Shown here in pieces: positions 2,727 to 36,676 of a stretch of 42,790 nt of DNA (positions are counted from its first letter, which is position 1; every line of letters starts with the position of its first letter). Made by a program: the position numbers and the translations under genes. Origin of the DNA: a virus; IMG/VR virus record IMGVR_UViG_3300028920_000132, positions 1 through 42,790 of that record. One strand, 5' to 3'. A model generated the notes under the pieces. It did not search any database. It saw only the letters and a program-made list of their open reading frames with translations, and was not told where the DNA came from.

Positions 2727-2966
2727 TTACTCCTTACCAACTTTTAATTCAATATCTTCAATAGTGCCAATAGTTTCACCAAACCTATTAATTTTATTAT
2801 CATCAATATATATATGACCATAACTTGTTTCAAAATTATCATACTGTTCTTCAGTGCATAGAGGTATACTATTTACTTTATCAACATCCCACGGTATATA
2901 AAATTCTTTACCATTAAATAAAATATAATCACCTTTTTTAAGTTGTTTGAATTTATCTATATCCAT
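2727..2966 (-). CDS. Hypothetical 79-residue protein
   Basis: Begins MDIDKFKQLKKGDYILFNGK after a strong AGGAGG site. The KKGDYILFNGKEF stretch suggests a small beta-barrel, as often seen in phage accessory proteins, but no family is recognised. First gene after a 142-base gap in the operon (2967-3108), so it may have its own upstream signal. Confidence 0.75.
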   Translation of the reverse strand: MDIDKFKQLKKGDYILFNGKEFYIPWDVDKVNSIPLCTEEQYDNFETSYGHIYIDDNKINRFGETIGTIEDIELKVGKE

Positions 2967-3108
2967 AATAATCTATCCTCCTAAATTAAGTTGGGCAGTT
3001 TATAAAAGACAATACCCAGGTCTTATAATAGAAAGCAACACACTTTCTACCATTAGTTATTATAACCTTCCCTGTAAAGTTAAATAACTACATCACATCA
3101 CACTCACA
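2967..3108 (-). other. Intergenic stretch with inverted repeats
   Basis: Contains a perfect 7-bp inverted repeat (TAGAAAG at 3029-3035, CTTTCTA at 3043-3049, 7-base loop) and, next to it, an imperfect one between about 3001 and 3028 (AAGAC/GTCTT plus flanking AT pairs). Neither is followed by a T run on the minus strand, so they are not clear terminators. They could protect or process the mRNA between the SSB-like gene and the small genes downstream. Confidence 0.4.
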
Positions 3109-3630
3109 TTATACCAAACTATCAGTCGAAACTTTCTTATAATTCTTAACTTCATTATCTGGACCATACTGTTCGTTACCTTTAGTCTGTAATATATCAG
3201 CAACTACCATCTTACCAGTAATATCTTGAATAAACTGGTAATTAATTTTCAATCCAGCTAAATCCATACCAACAGCTTCAGCAAACTGACGTAAGTTAAC
3301 TAAATGTTGTTTTTTCTTAAAATAGTCTTTAGCACCATACATTTCCATATTAGCGTAATAACATATTTTACCAAACACAACTTTACCTTTATACTTACCT
3401 TCAGCATCAACACCATCAACTAACTGTAACTGTGCATTAACCCATCTGTAATTGTTATCTTTACTAGCTTTAACTTCAGCTTTCTTTACCAACAACTTAA
3501 CTTCTCTACTAGGTGGTATTAACTGTTTCTCCTCTTTAACATCAGTTAAATCTTCTATAACTACCTCATCTACCACATTAAAACCTTCTTCTACCATACC
3601 TTCTTCACCAAATGTACTGAACTCTACCAT
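3109..3630 (-). CDS. SSB-like protein of recombination module (DUF669-like)
   Basis: 173 residues with an acidic N-terminal tail (about residues 1-38) and then a beta-rich core containing KLLVKKAEVKASKDNNYRW, GKVVFGKICY and KMVVADILQTKG. Phage proteins of this build next to Sak4-type ATPases are commonly single-stranded-DNA-binding proteins, often annotated DUF669. AGGAGG lies ahead of the ATG, which overlaps the stop of the small coiled-coil gene upstream. I infer that it binds ssDNA and works with the ATPase at 3847-4665. The assignment rests on context and general resemblance, not a catalytic motif. Confidence 0.6.
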   Translation of the reverse strand: MVEFSTFGEEGMVEEGFNVVDEVVIEDLTDVKEEKQLIPPSREVKLLVKKAEVKASKDNNYRWVNAQLQLVDGVDAEGKYKGKVVFGKICYYANMEMYGAKDYFKKKQHLVNLRQFAEAVGMDLAGLKINYQFIQDITGKMVVADILQTKGNEQYGPDNEVKNYKKVSTDSLV

Positions 3631-3857
3631 TACTTTACCTCCTGTTTTTTAGTTTCTACTTTATCAATATTCTTAACTAACTCTGCCCTTTCAGTCTCTA
3701 ACTTACTAAACTCATCAGCTAACGGTTTAATAGCAGTGTCTAACTGTTCTTTAATCTGTTTAACAGTAGACTGATACTTAACCTGTAACTCTTCAGCTTC
3801 AGATTTCAGTTCAAACATTCTAGACTGAACTTCAACTAACTTACTCTTATTGTCCAT
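3630..3857 (-). CDS. Small coiled-coil protein
   Basis: 75 residues, nearly all helical with heptad-like hydrophobics and many E/K (for example MFELKSEAEELQVKYQ and LETERAELVKNIDKVE). I chose ATG 3857 because a GGGGGAGG site lies 9 bases upstream; a GTG at 3866 sits on top of that site. It overlaps the end of the ATPase gene and its stop touches the SSB-like start, so it is probably a partner in the same module. Function unknown. Confidence 0.75.
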   Translation of the reverse strand: MDNKSKLVEVQSRMFELKSEAEELQVKYQSTVKQIKEQLDTAIKPLADEFSKLETERAELVKNIDKVETKKQEVK

Positions 3858-4665
3858 CTTTGTCACCTCCCCCTACAGTTATAGATTTATTAATCACTTC
3901 CATTATTTTCTGATAACTTATACCTTGTACTGTACTAGGCAGAGGTATCCTACTCTTACCATTACGTTGGTTACCTTTATTAACTCTAGCCCAATACTGG
4001 TATTTACCTTTATCTTCTAACTTAGTTAAATACATATTTAAACTAAACATACCTTCTACCTTGTTCCTAAACCCACCTAATATATTTGCCACTACTGGAG
4101 ACGTTTTATCTATCTTCTTATCCATAGCTTCGTCATTCTCTAACATCTCATGTGTAGTACATATTAAGTTACCAGGAAAACTCATTATCAATAACCCAAC
4201 TAACCTACTTAACTTAGTGTTCAAATCACCATACATACCTCTAGTATCTATAGCACCATCTCTAGTCTTCTTAACACAAAACTTGTTCATATATAACCAT
4301 AAATAATCTACTAAATAAGTTAACGTATCAATAACTAACGTATCTACCTTACCTTCTTTAAACAACGTCTTAGCTTCATTAACTAACTTATGCACTAACC
4401 CGTTATCTAACCCGTTATCCAAATCACCAAACAGTTGTTTTAACTCATCGTCATCTCCCGGTACCAACTCACATACCTTAACCATATTCTTACTTAAATG
4501 TGGTTGTACTTTAAACGTATCACCTTCACCTAAACTAAACCCCATATAGTATACTTTAGGACACGTACTGGCAAAATAAGTCTTACCACTTCCCGGTAAC
4601 CCACATACTAACGCTCTTAACTTAATATCCATAACAGCTTCTTTACCATCTTGTACTTTTAACAT
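3847..4665 (-). CDS. Sak4-like P-loop ATPase (recombination/annealing)
   Basis: 272 residues from ATG 4665, chosen because AAGGAG is 9 bases upstream; the in-frame TTG at 4674 lies too close. Walker A GLPGSGKT at residues 22-29 near the N terminus and Walker B-type VDTLVIDT near residue 110 fit the AAA_24 or Sak4 group of RecA-like phage ATPases. These act with an SSB in single-strand annealing or replication-coupled recombination. The flanking genes (SSB-like downstream, PD-(D/E)XK nuclease upstream) support that role. It acts in the cytoplasm on DNA. Confidence 0.8.
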   Translation of the reverse strand: MLKVQDGKEAVMDIKLRALVCGLPGSGKTYFASTCPKVYYMGFSLGEGDTFKVQPHLSKNMVKVCELVPGDDDELKQLFGDLDNGLDNGLVHKLVNEAKTLFKEGKVDTLVIDTLTYLVDYLWLYMNKFCVKKTRDGAIDTRGMYGDLNTKLSRLVGLLIMSFPGNLICTTHEMLENDEAMDKKIDKTSPVVANILGGFRNKVEGMFSLNMYLTKLEDKGKYQYWARVNKGNQRNGKSRIPLPSTVQGISYQKIMEVINKSITVGGGDKDGQ

Positions 4666-11114: not shown

Positions 11115-11340
11115 CTAAAACCTCCTTAAACTCATACCCACAATTAAAACAAAAACATTTCCCATCAACACAATCACTCAACCCACCACATTTCGGACAT
11201 TCTGGAGAATCTTTAAAATAATCATATATAGTAACCACATTACCCTTACCATCAACAGTCACCTTATACTTACCCTTAACAGTCTCTATTAACATAAACT
11301 CACCTTCTAACAATTTAATATTTACCTTAGGTCTACTCAT
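11101..11340 (-). CDS. Zinc-ribbon protein
   Basis: 79 residues from ATG 11340, which overlaps the end of the lysin gene and has GGAGGG upstream. A beta-rich front (KGKYKVTVDGKGNVVTIYDY) is followed by a zinc ribbon: CPKCGG and CFCFNCG. A longer frame to 11484 runs inside the lysin gene and is not supported. Function unknown. Confidence 0.7.
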   Translation of the reverse strand: MSRPKVNIKLLEGEFMLIETVKGKYKVTVDGKGNVVTIYDYFKDSPECPKCGGLSDCVDGKCFCFNCGYEFKEVLDERN

Positions 11341-11836
11341 CAAACTCATACCCTCCAGCCCCATATTTACCCTGGTTAACTTTCTTAAACTTCTCATAAT
11401 TACCAATATAAACCTTAGTATCCTGAGGTAAATGTTTATAAACCGCACCTCTCCTATACCAATCCAGTAGATTACCAATACCAAAATTATAAGCTATAAG
11501 TCTATGATACGCAGTATCAGGTATACTGTAATAATCTAACATATCAGGTATCTTAACATTAATATACCAACACCCAACAGTATACCCCAAATCCGGTTTC
11601 AACATATCATCTAACTTATAATTAGTCATATGATACTCATTATAATCGTCAAGTGCCGGTTGTCTTATCTGCATACACCCATAAGCACCTTCATCTTTTC
11701 TAATCTTACTATAATCCCCAGAACATTCAGCCATAATAACAGCCTGTATATCCATATCCACCTCAGCCGAAAAACAGTTAGGTACCACTATAAGAGCTAT
11801 AATAATTATAAACATACACCCTATAATATATTTCAT
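11333..11836 (-). CDS. Exported lytic transglycosylase (endolysin)
   Basis: 167 residues. An N-terminal hydrophobic segment (CMFIIIIALIVVPNCFSA) forms a signal peptide or signal-anchor. The SLT/lysozyme-like domain follows, with likely catalytic E37 (QAVIMAECSGD) and the conserved EGAYGCMQIRQPAL motif; later YNFGIGNLLDWYRRG also fits transglycosylases. It would cleave the glycan strands of peptidoglycan. Its ATG overlaps the stop of a two-helix membrane protein, so holin and lysin are coupled. A signal-bearing lysin suggests Sec export and a Gram-negative cell wall. Confidence 0.8.
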   Translation of the reverse strand: MKYIIGCMFIIIIALIVVPNCFSAEVDMDIQAVIMAECSGDYSKIRKDEGAYGCMQIRQPALDDYNEYHMTNYKLDDMLKPDLGYTVGCWYINVKIPDMLDYYSIPDTAYHRLIAYNFGIGNLLDWYRRGAVYKHLPQDTKVYIGNYEKFKKVNQGKYGAGGYEFDE

Positions 11837-26424: not shown

Positions 26425-27198
26425 ATGGCAAAGATTTTAGTAGGTATAGCAATGTGGCAACCACACAAACTCTTCTTAGAGTCTTTGCCTAAGTTTTATT
26501 CACAAATTAAACATAACCATGACGTGGAAATATACGTATGTTCAGGTATGCCGTTAGTAGACGCACAAAACGAGTTTGCAGAATATATGCTCAATAACGA
26601 CCATGAGTATTTGTTAACTTTAGAAGACGATCATTGGGGACACACACCTGAAATGTTGGAATCGTTACTCAACGCTAACACTTATATGTGTGGTATAAGA
26701 TATTATTCACGTCATCCGTTTTATATGTGTACGTTAATGAAATATAGTGATTGTAAAGGTAAGTCTATTAATAAACGATACGTTGATTTTCCATTAGATA
26801 CTAAAGGTTACCATGAATGTGATTTAGTACCATTTGGCATGACGTTAATTAAACGTGAACTGTTTACTGACGTGTTAGATAAACCTTATTTCAGGCTTAA
26901 CCATATATACGATCCAATAGAAGGCGAATATTATACTTATGGTACTGACCGTAATTTCTGTGATCGTATGATACAGAAAGGTATATATCCTGTAGGTTGT
27001 TTTGACCATACGTTAACACATGACGATATAAATGATAAAACTATTTGGTTCTATAGATGTGAAACTATGAAGTTATATAAAGGGTTTTCAGATAGATGTA
27101 AAGTGTTAAGACGTAAAGGTAAAAAACAACCTAAGTTTCATCTATATTATCAAAAACATAAACATGAGGTAGACGAATGCGTAAAATCTTATTTATAG
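26425..27198 (+). CDS. Family-2-like (GT-A) glycosyltransferase
   Basis: 257 residues. KILVGIAMWQPHKLFLESLP opens like a nucleotide-sugar-binding fold; the LLTLEDDHWGHTPEMLE segment gives a DxD-like EDDH near residue 72 and CFDHTLTHDD provides later metal or catalytic candidates. Transfers a sugar from a nucleotide donor, probably in the cytoplasm. AGAGGAAT ribosome-binding site. First of four overlapping genes; the next starts 22 bases before its stop. Acceptor unknown (virion protein, host glycan or DNA). Confidence 0.75.
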   Translation: MAKILVGIAMWQPHKLFLESLPKFYSQIKHNHDVEIYVCSGMPLVDAQNEFAEYMLNNDHEYLLTLEDDHWGHTPEMLESLLNANTYMCGIRYYSRHPFYMCTLMKYSDCKGKSINKRYVDFPLDTKGYHECDLVPFGMTLIKRELFTDVLDKPYFRLNHIYDPIEGEYYTYGTDRNFCDRMIQKGIYPVGCFDHTLTHDDINDKTIWFYRCETMKLYKGFSDRCKVLRRKGKKQPKFHLYYQKHKHEVDECVKSYL

Positions 27199-28112
27199 GG
27201 TCGTTCCCAACTAACGCATCTAATTTAGGTGACCAGGCACAAACCTGGTCTATACTGAACTATCTACATAACAATTTTTCAGATTATCAGTTACATCAGT
27301 TCTACCGTACTGAACTTAATACTGACAGGTACAAAGACATAACATCCACTGTCAATGAAGACGATATTATAATCATATCAAGTAGCGGAGATTTCGGGTC
27401 ACGATACAAAGGGTGGCATAATACTGCCAGACCCAGTATAATCCAACAGTTTAGTAATAACCAAATAATACAACTACCAACCACAGTGTATTATGATAAC
27501 AGTGCATATGCCGAATCGTTACTTAAACAAGACAAAACTATATACAACAATAACAACATAACAATATTGTGTCGTGAACCTGTAAGTGAATCTATAGCGT
27601 CTACACATTTCAGTTGTAACGTTAAGTTCTTCCCGGACTTTGCTTTCTACATACAACCTGAAACTTACGTAACTGAAACCAAAAACAACATATTACTTAA
27701 CTTACGTAATGACGGTGAACGAGCGATATCTAAAGAATATACTAACACGTTATCTAAACTAACTAATACCACTCCAATTAACATACATACTTTACCTTAT
27801 AACGTGGTACCTGACGTACGTGACAAAACGTTCAGTAACTTATTTAAAACTTACCAATCATATAACTTAATCATAACAGACCAGATGCATAGTATGATAT
27901 TTGCTATTATTAACAATATACCTTGTATAGCTATAGATGACGCTATACCACATAAACTGTCAGGATACAAGTCAGTTACTAAAAACGCAGTTAAGTATTT
28001 AGATTTAAACATTAACCAATCTATACCAGAATTAATCACACAAACAGTAACTGAATATGAACAAATATCTTTCAAACATTATTTCGACACTTTCAGGAGT
28101 ATGATAAAATGA
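27177..28112 (+). CDS. Polysaccharide pyruvyl transferase-like protein
   Basis: 311 residues. N-terminal KILFIGSFPTNASNLGDQAQ has the family's typical start with a GD..A motif; C-terminal NLIITDQMHSMIFAIINNIP and CIAIDDAIPHKLSG match the conserved (D)xxH...A...xPxI region. Members transfer pyruvate ketals or related groups to sugars of surface glycans. Overlaps both neighbours, so its level is tied to the glycosyltransferase. Its substrate is probably the sugar installed by the preceding gene. Confidence 0.75.
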   Translation: MRKILFIGSFPTNASNLGDQAQTWSILNYLHNNFSDYQLHQFYRTELNTDRYKDITSTVNEDDIIIISSSGDFGSRYKGWHNTARPSIIQQFSNNQIIQLPTTVYYDNSAYAESLLKQDKTIYNNNNITILCREPVSESIASTHFSCNVKFFPDFAFYIQPETYVTETKNNILLNLRNDGERAISKEYTNTLSKLTNTTPINIHTLPYNVVPDVRDKTFSNLFKTYQSYNLIITDQMHSMIFAIINNIPCIAIDDAIPHKLSGYKSVTKNAVKYLDLNINQSIPELITQTVTEYEQISFKHYFDTFRSMIK

Positions 28113-28759
28113 CCGGTATAAGACCAGAATATAAAAGTAGATGGGAAACGTATAGTTACCGTAACCATACGCCAGACGATCGTATTGATCCGGTATCTCT
28201 AGTAGGTGGTGATTTAGATAATGTATCTAAACGTCAACTAGAAATGGTACAAAGTGTAGGACTCAAACCTACACATAAATATCTAGATATAGGTTGTGGT
28301 TGTGTTAGAGGTGGTAGGTTAATAGAAAAATATTTAGATGAAGGTAACTATTGGGGATTAGACATATCAGAAACTTTGTTAGAAGAAGGTAAGAAACATG
28401 TTAAATGTCCCGACCAGCTTATACAAGTAACTGATTATGAGTATACTAAATACGTATCGTTAAAGTTTGATTACATAGTGCTATTCAGCGTGTTTACACA
28501 TATATATGAAGACGATATAGTTAACGTGCTTAATGGGATTAAACCTTTAACCACACCAACTACTATAACAGCACCTAGCGTACTGTTAATGTCTGAAGAT
28601 AACGAACGTGATGCGTTAGGTAACGTAGACAAGATAGTTTACAAACAATCTTGTATAGAAAGAATATTCAATAGTTGTGGATATGATTATAAGTTATATT
28701 CATTTCCTATAACTAACACTAGAAAACATACATGGTATTTACTTAACTATGACAAATGA
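28109..28759 (+). CDS. SAM-dependent methyltransferase
   Basis: 216 residues with motif I LDIGCGCVRGGRLIEKYLDE near residue 55, the acidic residue after it in WGLDISETLLEEG and a typical FDYIVLFSVFTHI segment. Rossmann-fold class I. Methylates a small molecule or sugar rather than protein or DNA by context. Its start overlaps the preceding stop (ATGA). Confidence 0.85.
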   Translation: MTGIRPEYKSRWETYSYRNHTPDDRIDPVSLVGGDLDNVSKRQLEMVQSVGLKPTHKYLDIGCGCVRGGRLIEKYLDEGNYWGLDISETLLEEGKKHVKCPDQLIQVTDYEYTKYVSLKFDYIVLFSVFTHIYEDDIVNVLNGIKPLTTPTTITAPSVLLMSEDNERDALGNVDKIVYKQSCIERIFNSCGYDYKLYSFPITNTRKHTWYLLNYDK

Positions 28760-29336
28760 CGAATTATATAACTTAATTAAAAACAGACGTAGTTACCGTA
28801 GATGGACTTATAAGAAGGTACCTACAAACATACTTAACCGTATAGCTGAATGTGGTGTGTATGCACCGTCAGGTGCCAACACTCAGAAAGTTAAGATACA
28901 GATAGTAACTGATCCGGAAACTATAGAAAACATATGTAAGAACACTTCTGATTGGTTTTATAAAAGTTACCCTACAAGTATACTAACAGTGTATTTTGAC
29001 CTTAACGTTAAAGATACTTTAAAATTAAACTATTTAACACCACATAAATATTGGTCTAGACTAATATGGCAAGACAGTGCGTCTTCTATGACTAACATGA
29101 TGTTAATGGCAGAAGCTTATGAACTTAAAACGTGTTGGGTATCTGTCAGACCCGATACTAACAACAAATACGAACAAAACATACGTGAGATACTTGATAT
29201 ACCAGACAACTATATAATAACTAGTTTCCTGTTTATAGGATACAGTGACGATAAGATAGATTACGAAACGTTTATTCATCAAGGTAAAAAGATTAAACGT
29301 GATTTAGATAACATAATTAAGGAGGAAAATAAATGA
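28749..29336 (+). CDS. Nitroreductase-family FMN protein
   Basis: 195 residues, usual size for the family. Opening NRRSYRRWTYKKVP with the two Arg and Ser that bind FMN phosphate; CGVYAPSGANTQ and the later MLMAEAYELKTCWVSVRPD also match. Uses NAD(P)H to reduce its substrate. In this operon it could complete a modified sugar or protect against host defence chemistry. Phage-borne nitroreductases are uncommon. Overlaps the methyltransferase end. Confidence 0.85.
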   Translation: MTNDELYNLIKNRRSYRRWTYKKVPTNILNRIAECGVYAPSGANTQKVKIQIVTDPETIENICKNTSDWFYKSYPTSILTVYFDLNVKDTLKLNYLTPHKYWSRLIWQDSASSMTNMMLMAEAYELKTCWVSVRPDTNNKYEQNIREILDIPDNYIITSFLFIGYSDDKIDYETFIHQGKKIKRDLDNIIKEENK

Positions 29337-32998: not shown

Positions 32999-34779
32999 TG
33001 GGTATATTGCTTAACAATAGTTTAACTAAATCAGAAGGTGATGACAGGTACCTAAAACTGGACTGTTCTAACGATCCTTTAACTAATCCTTTAGATTTAC
33101 CATGTATATATAATTCATTAGGCGATTTAAAACTAATGCCCGATATACAAGGTGATATTGTTTTGTTTGGTGATACTGATACAGCAGGTGACGGCAAAAA
33201 ACTTACTATATATCGTAAAAGTGCAGCTGGTGTAGGTGATATTAACTTAGATATTTATTGTGCATCTGACGAAGATTTTCAAATCCATAGTTCATGGGAT
33301 TTAGATATAACAGCAGATGCTTTAATGTATATAACAGCCGATTCGACTAGCATAGACGCAACTGTCGGGTTCTTTAGATTAAGCCCTAGTGCAACAGCAG
33401 ATATAGACTGTTTCAGTGAAGCTGATGTAGCTAACGCATCTGACGGTAAATCGTTCTATATCCATCGTAAAGCTGCAGAAGGCGACACATATTTCCAGAT
33501 ATATGGAGATGATGATGCGCAAACAGGTATCTTAGATTATAGTGGTGGTGATATTTCGTTTGTAGATACTAACCTATACACAACAGGACTGTTAGGTATA
33601 GGCAGTATATACGGTGCTAATCAACGCATGACTTTAACTTTAGAGGCAACTGATACGCATGGGATCTTAATTGACGGTGCGACAACTGACTCGACAGCTA
33701 CAGGCACAACTTACGGTACACATCTTGACAAAGACATAAACTCAGCTAGTGGTACGCATATAGGTCATAAAGTAGATTTAGATTTTGCTACTACTAGCGG
33801 TATAGGTAACTTAGGTTATGGATTCTGGTCAGATGTGTCAAGAGATGCTGGAGCAAGTTATTCTGATACTTTAGGGATAGGTAAAATGGCAGGTGTTATA
33901 GCTACTGTTACGTCTACTGGTGTAGGTTACGAAAACACAGGTACGGTTAATAGAACTATTGTCAACGATGGCGTAACTGGTACTGTGACAACTTCTGGTA
34001 CGATGACTCAAAGCAGTACAGGTACGATAACCAACTATGCTAGAGGTGGTGTTTTCTCAGCTAATAACTCTGCGTTAGGAGATGTAACTACTTTAACTTA
34101 TGGAGTTTCCGCAACCGCTACTGGTAACACAGGTGGTACAAGTACAGCTTATGGTATATATTCTAAAGCTTCTGGTGCAGACACTAACTATGCAGGATAT
34201 TTCGATGGTATGGTAACATTAAAAGAAAACACTCTTGTAACAACTCCAGTAGCTGGTACGTTTGAGTTTGCTAACGATAGAATGTATGTTACTAATTTCT
34301 GTACTCAAAGATCAATAGATAGAACAAGTGACGTTATAACATCAACCACTACAGTTACCAACACAACTACAGAAACTATAATCTATACTGGAGAAATAGG
34401 TGCAGATTGTTTAAAAGTAGGTAACATACTTAAACTACATTGTGACGGTGTGTTGAGTAACGATAGTGCTGCTGATGATATAACTGTTAAGATATATATA
34501 GGTACAACTGAAGTGTTAAGTTTTGATCCTCCTATTGGTAACGTAACAGACGCACATTGGCATATGAACGGTAACATGACCGTAAGAACAGTTGGTGCAG
34601 GTGGTACTATGGCTTATCATTTAGATTTTAATTTAGCCGATAACGATACTGAAATCATAGGTACCGACACTCTTGACACTACTGCATCGTTAGACTTTAC
34701 AGTTACAGTAACTTGGGATAACGCTAAAGAAGACAACACTATAAGTATATATCAAGGTTTTACTGAATGGAAAAACTAA
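32998..34779 (+). CDS. Second tail appendage protein
   Basis: 593 residues, all-beta, Gly/Thr/Asp-rich, with the N-terminal MGILLNNSLTKSEGDDRYLK of fibre-type attachment domains. Centre GTTYGTHLDKDINSASGTHI-type repeats suggest beta-helical or triple-strand fold; C-terminal domain ends ISIYQGFTEWKN. Probably an elongated appendage. No peptidoglycan or sugar hydrolase motif seen. Confidence 0.7.
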   Translation: MGILLNNSLTKSEGDDRYLKLDCSNDPLTNPLDLPCIYNSLGDLKLMPDIQGDIVLFGDTDTAGDGKKLTIYRKSAAGVGDINLDIYCASDEDFQIHSSWDLDITADALMYITADSTSIDATVGFFRLSPSATADIDCFSEADVANASDGKSFYIHRKAAEGDTYFQIYGDDDAQTGILDYSGGDISFVDTNLYTTGLLGIGSIYGANQRMTLTLEATDTHGILIDGATTDSTATGTTYGTHLDKDINSASGTHIGHKVDLDFATTSGIGNLGYGFWSDVSRDAGASYSDTLGIGKMAGVIATVTSTGVGYENTGTVNRTIVNDGVTGTVTTSGTMTQSSTGTITNYARGGVFSANNSALGDVTTLTYGVSATATGNTGGTSTAYGIYSKASGADTNYAGYFDGMVTLKENTLVTTPVAGTFEFANDRMYVTNFCTQRSIDRTSDVITSTTTVTNTTTETIIYTGEIGADCLKVGNILKLHCDGVLSNDSAADDITVKIYIGTTEVLSFDPPIGNVTDAHWHMNGNMTVRTVGAGGTMAYHLDFNLADNDTEIIGTDTLDTTASLDFTVTVTWDNAKEDNTISIYQGFTEWKN

Positions 34780-34799
34780 TAATGTATAAGGATAAAACT

Positions 34800-35087
34800 A
34801 TGAATCAAGAAAACAAAGATTGTATGTTACATAGAGACAAAATACATCAATTAGAACTTAACATGACAGAACTTAAAACAGACATTAAACATATACGTAA
34901 CAGAATAGATGACGGTCTTAGCAACACAATAACTAAAGTATACGACACAATAATCCACCTATCTCCACAGGTAGACAAAAACACTAAGATAAGCAACCAT
35001 ATAATAACGGCTGTATTTAGCATAGTATCTGTTAGCGTGATAGGTGGAATTATAACTTTAATGTGGTATTTTGCTACTAAACAATAA
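34800..35087 (+). CDS. Coiled coil with C-terminal membrane helix (holin-like)
   Basis: 95 residues from ATG 34800 (AAGGATA at good spacing); earlier ATG codons at 34767 and 34782 lack sites. MNQENKDCMLHRDKIHQLEL is coiled coil, then a single hydrophobic segment IITAVFSIVSVSVIGGIITL to ATKQ. Domain order as in XhlA-like membrane-associated lysis proteins. Its neighbour is another small membrane protein, so a lysis or ejection role is plausible. Confidence 0.6.
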   Translation: MNQENKDCMLHRDKIHQLELNMTELKTDIKHIRNRIDDGLSNTITKVYDTIIHLSPQVDKNTKISNHIITAVFSIVSVSVIGGIITLMWYFATKQ

Positions 35088-35113: not shown

Positions 35114-35278
35114 ATGGATTGGATTAAATCTCATTGGGCAGAAATAGGTGTTATAGTGTTATATCTACACACTTTTCTAAAAGCTATAGCTAGAATAACA
35201 GCTACTAAAAAAGACGATATGATAATGGACAAGATAGGTTCAGTAATAGCTTATTTATTCGGTAAAGACCCAAAGTAA
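35114..35278 (+). CDS. Small membrane protein ending at a frameshift signal
   Basis: 54 residues, MDWIKSHWAEIGVIVLYLHT then FLKAIARITATKKDD and GSVIAYLFGKDPK. AAGGAG ahead of ATG 35114. Common type of phage small membrane protein next to holin-like genes. The stop TAA directly follows a C-CCA-AAG heptamer and a stem-loop, so a fraction of ribosomes may read on in the -1 frame (next entry) to give a 108-residue product. Confidence 0.7.
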   Translation: MDWIKSHWAEIGVIVLYLHTFLKAIARITATKKDDMIMDKIGSVIAYLFGKDPK

Positions 35279-35319
35279 TTAAGCGGAGACCACCGTTTTT
35301 AATACGTACGGCACTCCGC
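35269..35319 (+). promoter_or_regulatory. -1 frameshift signal: slippery heptamer plus stem-loop
   Basis: Heptamer C CCA AAG (X XXY YYZ) in zero frame at 35269-35275; stop codon at 35276; 7-base spacer; stem GCGGAG (35283-35288) with CTCCGC (35314-35319), inner pairs CCGT (35293-35296) with ACGG (35308-35311). Spacer length and stem are those of classical programmed -1 sites. No T run, so not a terminator. Confidence 0.65.
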
Positions 35320-35439
35320 ATAATAGAGACAGGTGAAATACCGTTTTGGCTTAAACTGTTACTTAACGTTAAGTTTGGTAAGTTTAAAACACCTTCAGGA
35401 ATAGAGTATGAAGGTATAAAAATAGAATTTAAATGGTAA
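35276..35439 (+). CDS. Probable -1 frameshift extension, 54 residues
   Basis: This frame holds VIKRRPPFLIRTALRIIETG, EIPFWLKLLLNVKFG, then a strand-rich end (GIEYEGIKIEFKW), a typical protein composition, but it has no ATG, GTG or TTG codon anywhere before its stop at 35437-35439. It is reached only by slipping at C-CCA-AAG (35269-35275). It then joins the small membrane protein at KDPK. The stop lies 11 bases before the tail adaptor gene, whose ribosome-binding site GGAG lies in between. Without shift the frame is not expressed, barring a rare ATT or ATA start. Confidence 0.6.
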
Positions 35440-35449
35440 GGAGAACATT

Positions 35450-36676
35450 ATGTTTGTTTTCAGTGAATTACAAAATGAAGTTAAACGTGGTGCTGTTAGG
35501 GATAAGTCAGGTACCGAATTCGATACTGCTGTTAAAAGTGCTATTAACAGAGCTATTAACAGGTTAAGTAGAGAATGTAGGTGGCGACCGTTACGTAAAG
35601 AATCCAGTTTCAACACTGTGACTAGTTATAGTGAAGGGTCAGGTGCAGTAAGTGTAACTGAAGATTCAGCTAACGTTACCGTAACTGGTGCTACGTTTGT
35701 AACAGACGATATTAAAGTTGGTAGACGTATAAATATAGGTGGTAGCAGTAAAAACTACCGTATATCTACCATAACAGGTGAAACTACATTAACACTTAAC
35801 CAAGCGTATGATGGCGATACTGATACTGCTGAAACTTACAGTATACTGGCACAAGGTAGGTATAACTTACCTATACAAGCTAGTCATCATGTGATTATGT
35901 GGCATGAACAGTATGGTAACCCACATCAGATGAACTATATCACTAGCCAACAATCGTTTGGATATGGGTTAGAAGAAGATACTGAAAGTATACCTACATA
36001 TTACCGTATGTGGGGTGCAGATTCTACACTTATGCAACCTCGTCAAGCCAGTACTATAAGTATAGTTTCCAGTAGTGCTAGTGATACTACTCAAACAATA
36101 ACTATATTCGGTACAGTGAGTAACTATCCTGATTACGAAACTATTAACCTTAACGGTACCACTACTGCTACTGGTAGTAAAAGTTTTTCTGCAGTTGATA
36201 GAATAGTGTCTAACAGTACCGCTAGAGTAGGTAGAGTTACCGTATCGGCTAATTCAGGTAACGATACTTTAGCAGTGTTGCCAGTAGGTGCTACTACACG
36301 TGAAGTTAAATATTATAAAGTGGATATAAGACCTCTGCCATCAGCAGTGTTCCCGATGTTTGTGTATTATTATAAGATACCTTATATGTTAGTTAACGAT
36401 CAAGACGTACATGAGTTAGGTAGCGATTTCGATAACGCTATAATATTCTTAGCTATTGCTATAATGAGAGGTGAAACTAGCCAGAAAGAAAGTACTACTT
36501 ATTTAGGTATGTATAAAGACGAACTTAAAAGTTTAAAGAAATTTTATCTAGACAAAATAGATTGGTTACCTAGACTTAAAGAATCGTCGTTAACGTCTCC
36601 AGTAAGTTATCTGCACCCTGCAGTTAGTTATGCACAGATGGGTAACAATGGTATGTTTGGACCGACAGTTTATTAA
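35450..36676 (+). CDS. Tail adaptor / head-tail connector protein
   Basis: 408 residues. N-terminal helical segment (FSELQNEVKRGAVRDKSGTE, then VKSAINRAINRLSRECRWR) is the form of tail adaptor (gp4/gp11-like) proteins; a long beta-rich insert follows, and the C terminus has an acidic helix pair (GTYLGMYKDELKSLKKFYLD-like). Sits next to the nozzle gene, as in podoviruses. Joins portal to tail. Confidence 0.75.
   Translation: MFVFSELQNEVKRGAVRDKSGTEFDTAVKSAINRAINRLSRECRWRPLRKESSFNTVTSYSEGSGAVSVTEDSANVTVTGATFVTDDIKVGRRINIGGSSKNYRISTITGETTLTLNQAYDGDTDTAETYSILAQGRYNLPIQASHHVIMWHEQYGNPHQMNYITSQQSFGYGLEEDTESIPTYYRMWGADSTLMQPRQASTISIVSSSASDTTQTITIFGTVSNYPDYETINLNGTTTATGSKSFSAVDRIVSNSTARVGRVTVSANSGNDTLAVLPVGATTREVKYYKVDIRPLPSAVFPMFVYYYKIPYMLVNDQDVHELGSDFDNAIIFLAIAIMRGETSQKESTTYLGMYKDELKSLKKFYLDKIDWLPRLKESSLTSPVSYLHPAVSYAQMGNNGMFGPTVY

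Follow-up and report, generated by a model that had tools for sequence, protein, structure and literature searches.

A candidate -1 frameshift site that would extend a small membrane protein of an uncultured phage, and its recurrence with different slip signals

We analyzed a 42,790-nt stretch of DNA from an uncultured virus in IMG/VR (record IMGVR_UViG_3300028920_000132; here called the window), for which an earlier note had proposed that a -1 programmed frameshift extends a small membrane protein. The proposed site lies at the 3' end of a short zero-frame gene, which we call up, and leads into an overlapping -1 frame, which we call dn. The locus carries the following features.

35114-35278, plus strand: up, 54 amino acids, one predicted membrane helix (residues 8 to 28 by AlphaFold) and a KKDD motif; matches phrog_9685 (E = 1.1e-5), with the strong ribosome-binding site (RBS) TAAGGAG 7 nt upstream.
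35269-35275, plus strand: slippery heptamer CCCAAAG, in zero-frame phase as C CCA AAG and the only one in the overlap.
35276-35278, plus strand: zero-frame stop codon TAA, abutting the heptamer and opening the 7-nt spacer TAATTAA (35276-35282).
35283-35319, plus strand: predicted stimulatory hairpin with a 6-bp outer stem and a 4-bp inner stem, -14.3 kcal/mol.
35275-35439, plus strand: dn, a -1-frame C-terminal domain of 54 codons from GTA (35275) to TGG (35436), closed by TAA (35437-35439); has homologues in five lineages and an AlphaFold prediction.

The 3' end of up reads GAC CCA AAG TAA, and the layout described in the earlier note was found at each point. The heptamer stands in the zero frame with the stop codon right behind it and a 7-base spacer (35269-35282), and the G/C-rich outer stem pairs GCGGAG (35283-35288) with CTCCGC (35314-35319) around an inner stem of CCGT (35293-35296) and ACGG (35308-35311). 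The dn frame of the window contains no ATG, GTG, or TTG codon, the domain that it would add is basic, and the fused product has 108 residues. Just two codon positions in the overlap could hold an in-phase heptamer, which gives a chance of 0.7% given how often such heptamers occur in this genome (0.35% of codons). A hairpin as stable and as correctly spaced occurs at 0.7% of random positions, and the hairpin region has a z-score of -3.9 against dinucleotide shuffles, a value equally extreme in 0.3% of 595 neighborhood windows. C_CCA_AAG, G_GGA_AAG, and A_AAA_AAG were the most efficient heptamers in a systematic Escherichia coli test, where C_CCA_AAG gave up to 54% shift with a strong stimulator (PMC4066793). 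An Rfam scan returned one chance match, on the opposite strand.

Used as a direct query, the 108-residue fusion retrieved no viral contig and gave no credible hit among named phages. Relatives were gathered by way of the next gene, which served as the anchor, and the DNA upstream of it was read in the related contigs.

35450-36676, plus strand: SU10-type adaptor gene (PF24175, E = 4.6e-6), with its own RBS TAAGGAG.

Two adaptor-anchored contigs (L017 and L020) carried a -1-frame domain like that of the window behind a small one-helix protein, and a profile built from three dn sequences added three further lineages, in which the surrounding genes differ (L037/L038, L039, and L041/L042). The dn protein of the window is 28 to 57% identical to those of the five other lineages, each of which lies directly 3' of a small one-helix protein. 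Against 25 records, the dn profile recovered these copies with E values of 1e-20 to 1e-30 and no other, and the dn-bearing records examined in this search showed no natural in-frame fusion of up and dn. An alignment of six dn sequences was too diverse for scanning; a four-sequence profile, used in its place, brought no new viral lineage and no match in a bacterial and archaeal genome collection. Among 50,697 named phage records there was no credible dn relative, with tblastn of dn or the fusion giving nothing or chance-level matches (E = 0.1 to 8), and no PHROGs family matched dn at the sensitivity used. A frame in L008 ending KTQNGEKFKVMGIKF looked dn-like by eye and was dropped when it did not match the dn profile; tails ending FKW or WKW in L032 and L018/L019 were likewise dropped.

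The earlier note had called for relatives to be checked for the heptamer and stem, and this comparison gave the strongest result. In each of the four other -1 lineages, the stretch bounded by the last stop of the -1 frame and the zero-frame stop contains a single in-phase X XXY YYZ heptamer, and all are different. Their chances, computed from the background rate in each contig's own genes, are as follows.

L017, position 3147: T TTT TTG, chance 0.028.
L020, position 3500: A AAA AAG, chance 0.032.
L037, position 2986: T TTT TTC, chance 0.031.
L039, position 2983: G GGA AAC, directly 5' of TAA as in the window, chance 0.013.

The product of these chances is 3.6e-7 for the four lineages without the window and 2.6e-9 with the window's 0.007. 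A hairpin starts 4 to 8 nt past the heptamer in all five -1 lineages (spacers of 7, 6, 5, 4-8, and 8 nt), and the fraction of random placements that were as stable was 0.007 for the window, 0.053 for L017, 0.000 for L020, 0.047 for L037, and 0.013 for L039, for a joint Fisher p value of 1.3e-5 (1.6e-4 without the window). A control screen covered 343 genes of these contigs, with the up genes of L020 and L037 dropped by its overlap filter. Of these genes, 143 had a -1 extension that stayed open for 35 codons or more, and only eight in-phase heptamers fell in such overlaps; three were dn cases, and the others were in shadow frames or entered a following open reading frame (ORF) with its own start nearby. 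Start-less -1 extensions with a heptamer were thus essentially limited to dn in this screen. The recurrence in other lineages is the decisive support, and it marks the site, as judged from these comparisons, as conserved rather than accidental.

Substitutions in dn also point to a frame that is translated and under constraint. Over all sequence pairs, the mismatch rate was 0.48 at the first codon position, 0.40 at the second, and 0.67 at the third, and of 262 identical dn residues, 146 were encoded by different codons. This pattern is typical of coding DNA, so the absence of purifying selection, which the earlier note had named as a result that would count against it, was not seen, and its impression that the -1 frame looks coding is borne out by these substitutions and by the homologues in five other lineages.

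Programmed frameshifting is, in our judgment, very probably the best explanation of this locus, and the recurrence together with a start-less, constrained dn supports the earlier proposal. Ribosomes translating C CCA AAG would meet the hairpin 7 nt downstream, and a fraction of them would re-pair on CCC AAA, bypass the adjoining TAA, and read 54 further codons. Shifted ribosomes would thereby make a protein of 108 residues that ends in a basic domain, while unshifted ribosomes would stop at TAA after 54 residues. What can be read directly from the DNA is the site with its hairpin, a -1 frame that lacks a start and is under selection, and the recurrence with different heptamers; it is from these that we infer the occurrence of frameshifting, its rate, and its role.

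Several observations weigh against this explanation. The lineages with dn number only six, window included. By z-score, only the hairpins of the window, L017, and L020 stand out, and those of L037 and L039 are unremarkable. The heptamer efficiencies are E. coli values, which may not be those of the phage's host and serve as a guide only. The shift direction is not universally -1, being -1 in five lineages and +1/-2 in one. Finally, plausible internal starts with weak Shine-Dalgarno (SD) sequences are found in L017 (ATG 3192, with GAGGT) and L020 (TTG 3536, with AGGA).

These starts bear on the most serious rival, in which dn is a separate small gene and terminating ribosomes restart at a noncanonical ATT by stop-start coupling. 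In the window, the ATT at 35278 overlaps the stop as TA-ATT and so imitates a TAATG coupling overlap; TAATG and ATGA overlaps likewise place the second gene in the -1 frame, and we therefore did not count the frame relation alone as evidence. The dn of L041 also lies in a different frame, as separate translation would allow. However, ATT is very rare as a start and here has no SD sequence, versus an SD sequence in 22 of 24 genes of that arm, and no comparable overlap start exists in L037 or L039. The earlier note had held that homologues in which the second frame has its own ATG and RBS would tell against it, and this held only in part. No usable start was found in the window, L037, L039, or L041, since the window and L037 have no ATG, GTG, or TTG in dn and the TTG of L039 and the first GTG of L041 have purine runs at zero spacing; the possible starts of L017 and L020 stand as exceptions. 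Even in L017, the conserved motif GR[LI]TL[KR]G[KR]A (GRLTLRGRA, matched by GRITLKGKA in L037) sits upstream of ATG 3192. Coupling would also leave five different in-phase heptamers with hairpins unexplained, and we regard it as improbable.

Transcriptional slippage on homopolymer runs, in place of ribosomal slippage, could join the frames in L017, L020, L037, and L041, which have runs of six T or six A, and could also yield the +1 frame of L041. No such run is present in the window (CCCAAAG) or L039 (GGGAAAC), and slippage of this kind has no need of codon phase or hairpins. For slippage by a bacterial polymerase, six bases make a short run, and we give this explanation very little credence. 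An assembly error is just as hard to credit, as is the decay of an ordinary in-frame fusion into a pseudogene through an indel: a single-base indel could produce the -1 relation, but the arrangement is repeated in six lineages, the sites are identical across different samples (L037/L038 and L041/L042), no in-frame fusion was seen, and constraint runs through dn.

The lineage that departs from a -1 shift is represented by L041 and L042, from two samples and identical at the site, where dn (2905-3084; 57% identical to the window dn) is in the +1 frame and the junction reads AAG TTT TTT CAA CCC AAA CAG TAA. Judging from these letters, a +1 shift could take place on TTT TTT C, with UUU re-pairing to UUC, or on CCC A, for which Listeria phage PSA, with its +1 shift at a proline codon, offers a parallel; a -2 shift on the T run is possible. 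Shift direction is known to vary among relatives for tail genes and for Ig-like extensions (PMC5009743). The opposite direction in L041/L042, together with these known changes, suggests that phages retain the extension but can exchange the means of recoding by which it is reached. In L041, a terminator-like hairpin with a T run lies directly 3' of dn (3085-3120; GGGCAAAGGCTAAAATCTTTGCCCTATTTTTTG), so up/dn seems to be last in that operon.

AlphaFold predicted, with moderate confidence, one long helix for up alone (pLDDT 71) and two helices plus a beta-hairpin for dn alone (pLDDT 69). Up belongs with the small phage membrane proteins of the functionally unannotated families phrog_9685 and phrog_402, with which it shares an LTPTKKDD-type motif: it matches phrog_9685 with an E value of 1e-5 in the window and 2e-9 in L039, and relatives that lack dn and end normally are found in L006 and L009. 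Upstream of up lies a second small membrane protein gene.

34767-35087, plus strand: small membrane protein of 106 amino acids with a hydrophobic C-terminal segment; weak XhlA-like match (phrog_937 "hemolysin," E = 0.005, below firm significance).

This protein is a probable cassette partner of up, and coiled-coil or membrane ORFs of similar size, at best weakly XhlA- or holin-like, precede the zero-frame gene in L017, L020, and L037 too. A peptidoglycan hydrolase gene lies within 0.5 kb downstream only in L037 (a DPBB lytic transglycosylase) and L041 (an M15 endolysin); the window has none within 0.5 kb downstream of up/dn, and its SLT-domain gene is far off, at 11333-11836. The earlier note had suggested that the two products may serve timing or ejection control; the neighboring genes lean weakly towards lysis. 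The role that we favor, tentatively, from this context is that the shift would fix the proportions in which a holin-like or lysis-associated membrane protein is made in its short and long forms, and other membrane roles, such as virion-membrane contact or superinfection exclusion, may apply. Somewhat more speculatively, the locus may represent an undescribed class of phage recoding, in which distant phages would retain a frameshift-dependent C-terminal domain on a holin-like small membrane protein, would exchange the slip signal and even the shift direction, and would govern lysis or membrane timing through a set short-to-long ratio.

Most known frameshifting in tailed phages concerns tail chaperones or the extension of capsid and tail-shaft proteins, and here it would act on a tiny membrane protein gene. 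Like the lambda G/GT-type tail assembly frameshift (PMC5009743), the site would give a short and a C-terminally extended product, with a direction that varies among phages (-1, -2, and +1 in the G/GT type). Unlike in that system, there is no adjoining tape measure gene, the next gene being the adaptor, and the first product is not a chaperone but a membrane protein of 54 to 77 amino acids with a predicted helix; we found no sequence relation of up or dn to G/GT-type proteins. The capsid and tail-shaft extensions of T7/T3 gene 10, of Ig-like domains, and of Listeria phages A118, A500, and PSA (PMC5009743) likewise place a C-terminal add-on on some molecules by a -1 or +1 shift, depending on the phage, but the target here is a small membrane protein and dn, with its predicted helices and one hairpin, is not Ig-like. 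Alphavirus 6K/TF (PMC5009743) also involves a -1 shift in a very small membrane protein gene with two membrane products; it belongs to an animal RNA virus, TF swaps the 6K C terminus whereas here the entire short form is extended, and we claim no homology. In the open-access literature that we searched, no frameshifting in a holin or lysis-membrane gene came up, which is no proof that none exists; the mechanism is a known one, and the type of gene is one for which that literature offers no example. The two-product system is directly testable, and its one extension would be reached through five different heptamers and, in one lineage, a shift in the opposite direction. Gene callers miss dn because it has no start codon, which suggests that real domains may also be hidden in other overlapping phage frames that lack a start.

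No close named relative of the window was found. Its structural genes (terminase phrog_38, major head protein, SU10-type adaptor, and a "stabilisation"-type protein) resemble generic families only distantly and at low similarity, and the "P22-like" label of the earlier note finds no support in them. In L003 (3360-4787), L006, L007, and L009, the place just 5' of the adaptor, held by up/dn in the window, is taken by a multi-helix protein of 445 to 480 amino acids that resembles a membrane glycosyltransferase-type protein and has a repeat-rich C terminus. ORFs resembling HNH-type homing endonucleases adjoin the adaptor in L020 (3633-3986, between dn and the adaptor) and in L026 and L027 (near 3400-4050). 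Between the head and tail genes of the window, at 26425-29336, lie four nonstructural genes that by eye are glycosyltransferase-, polysaccharide pyruvyl transferase-, methyltransferase-, and nitroreductase-like.
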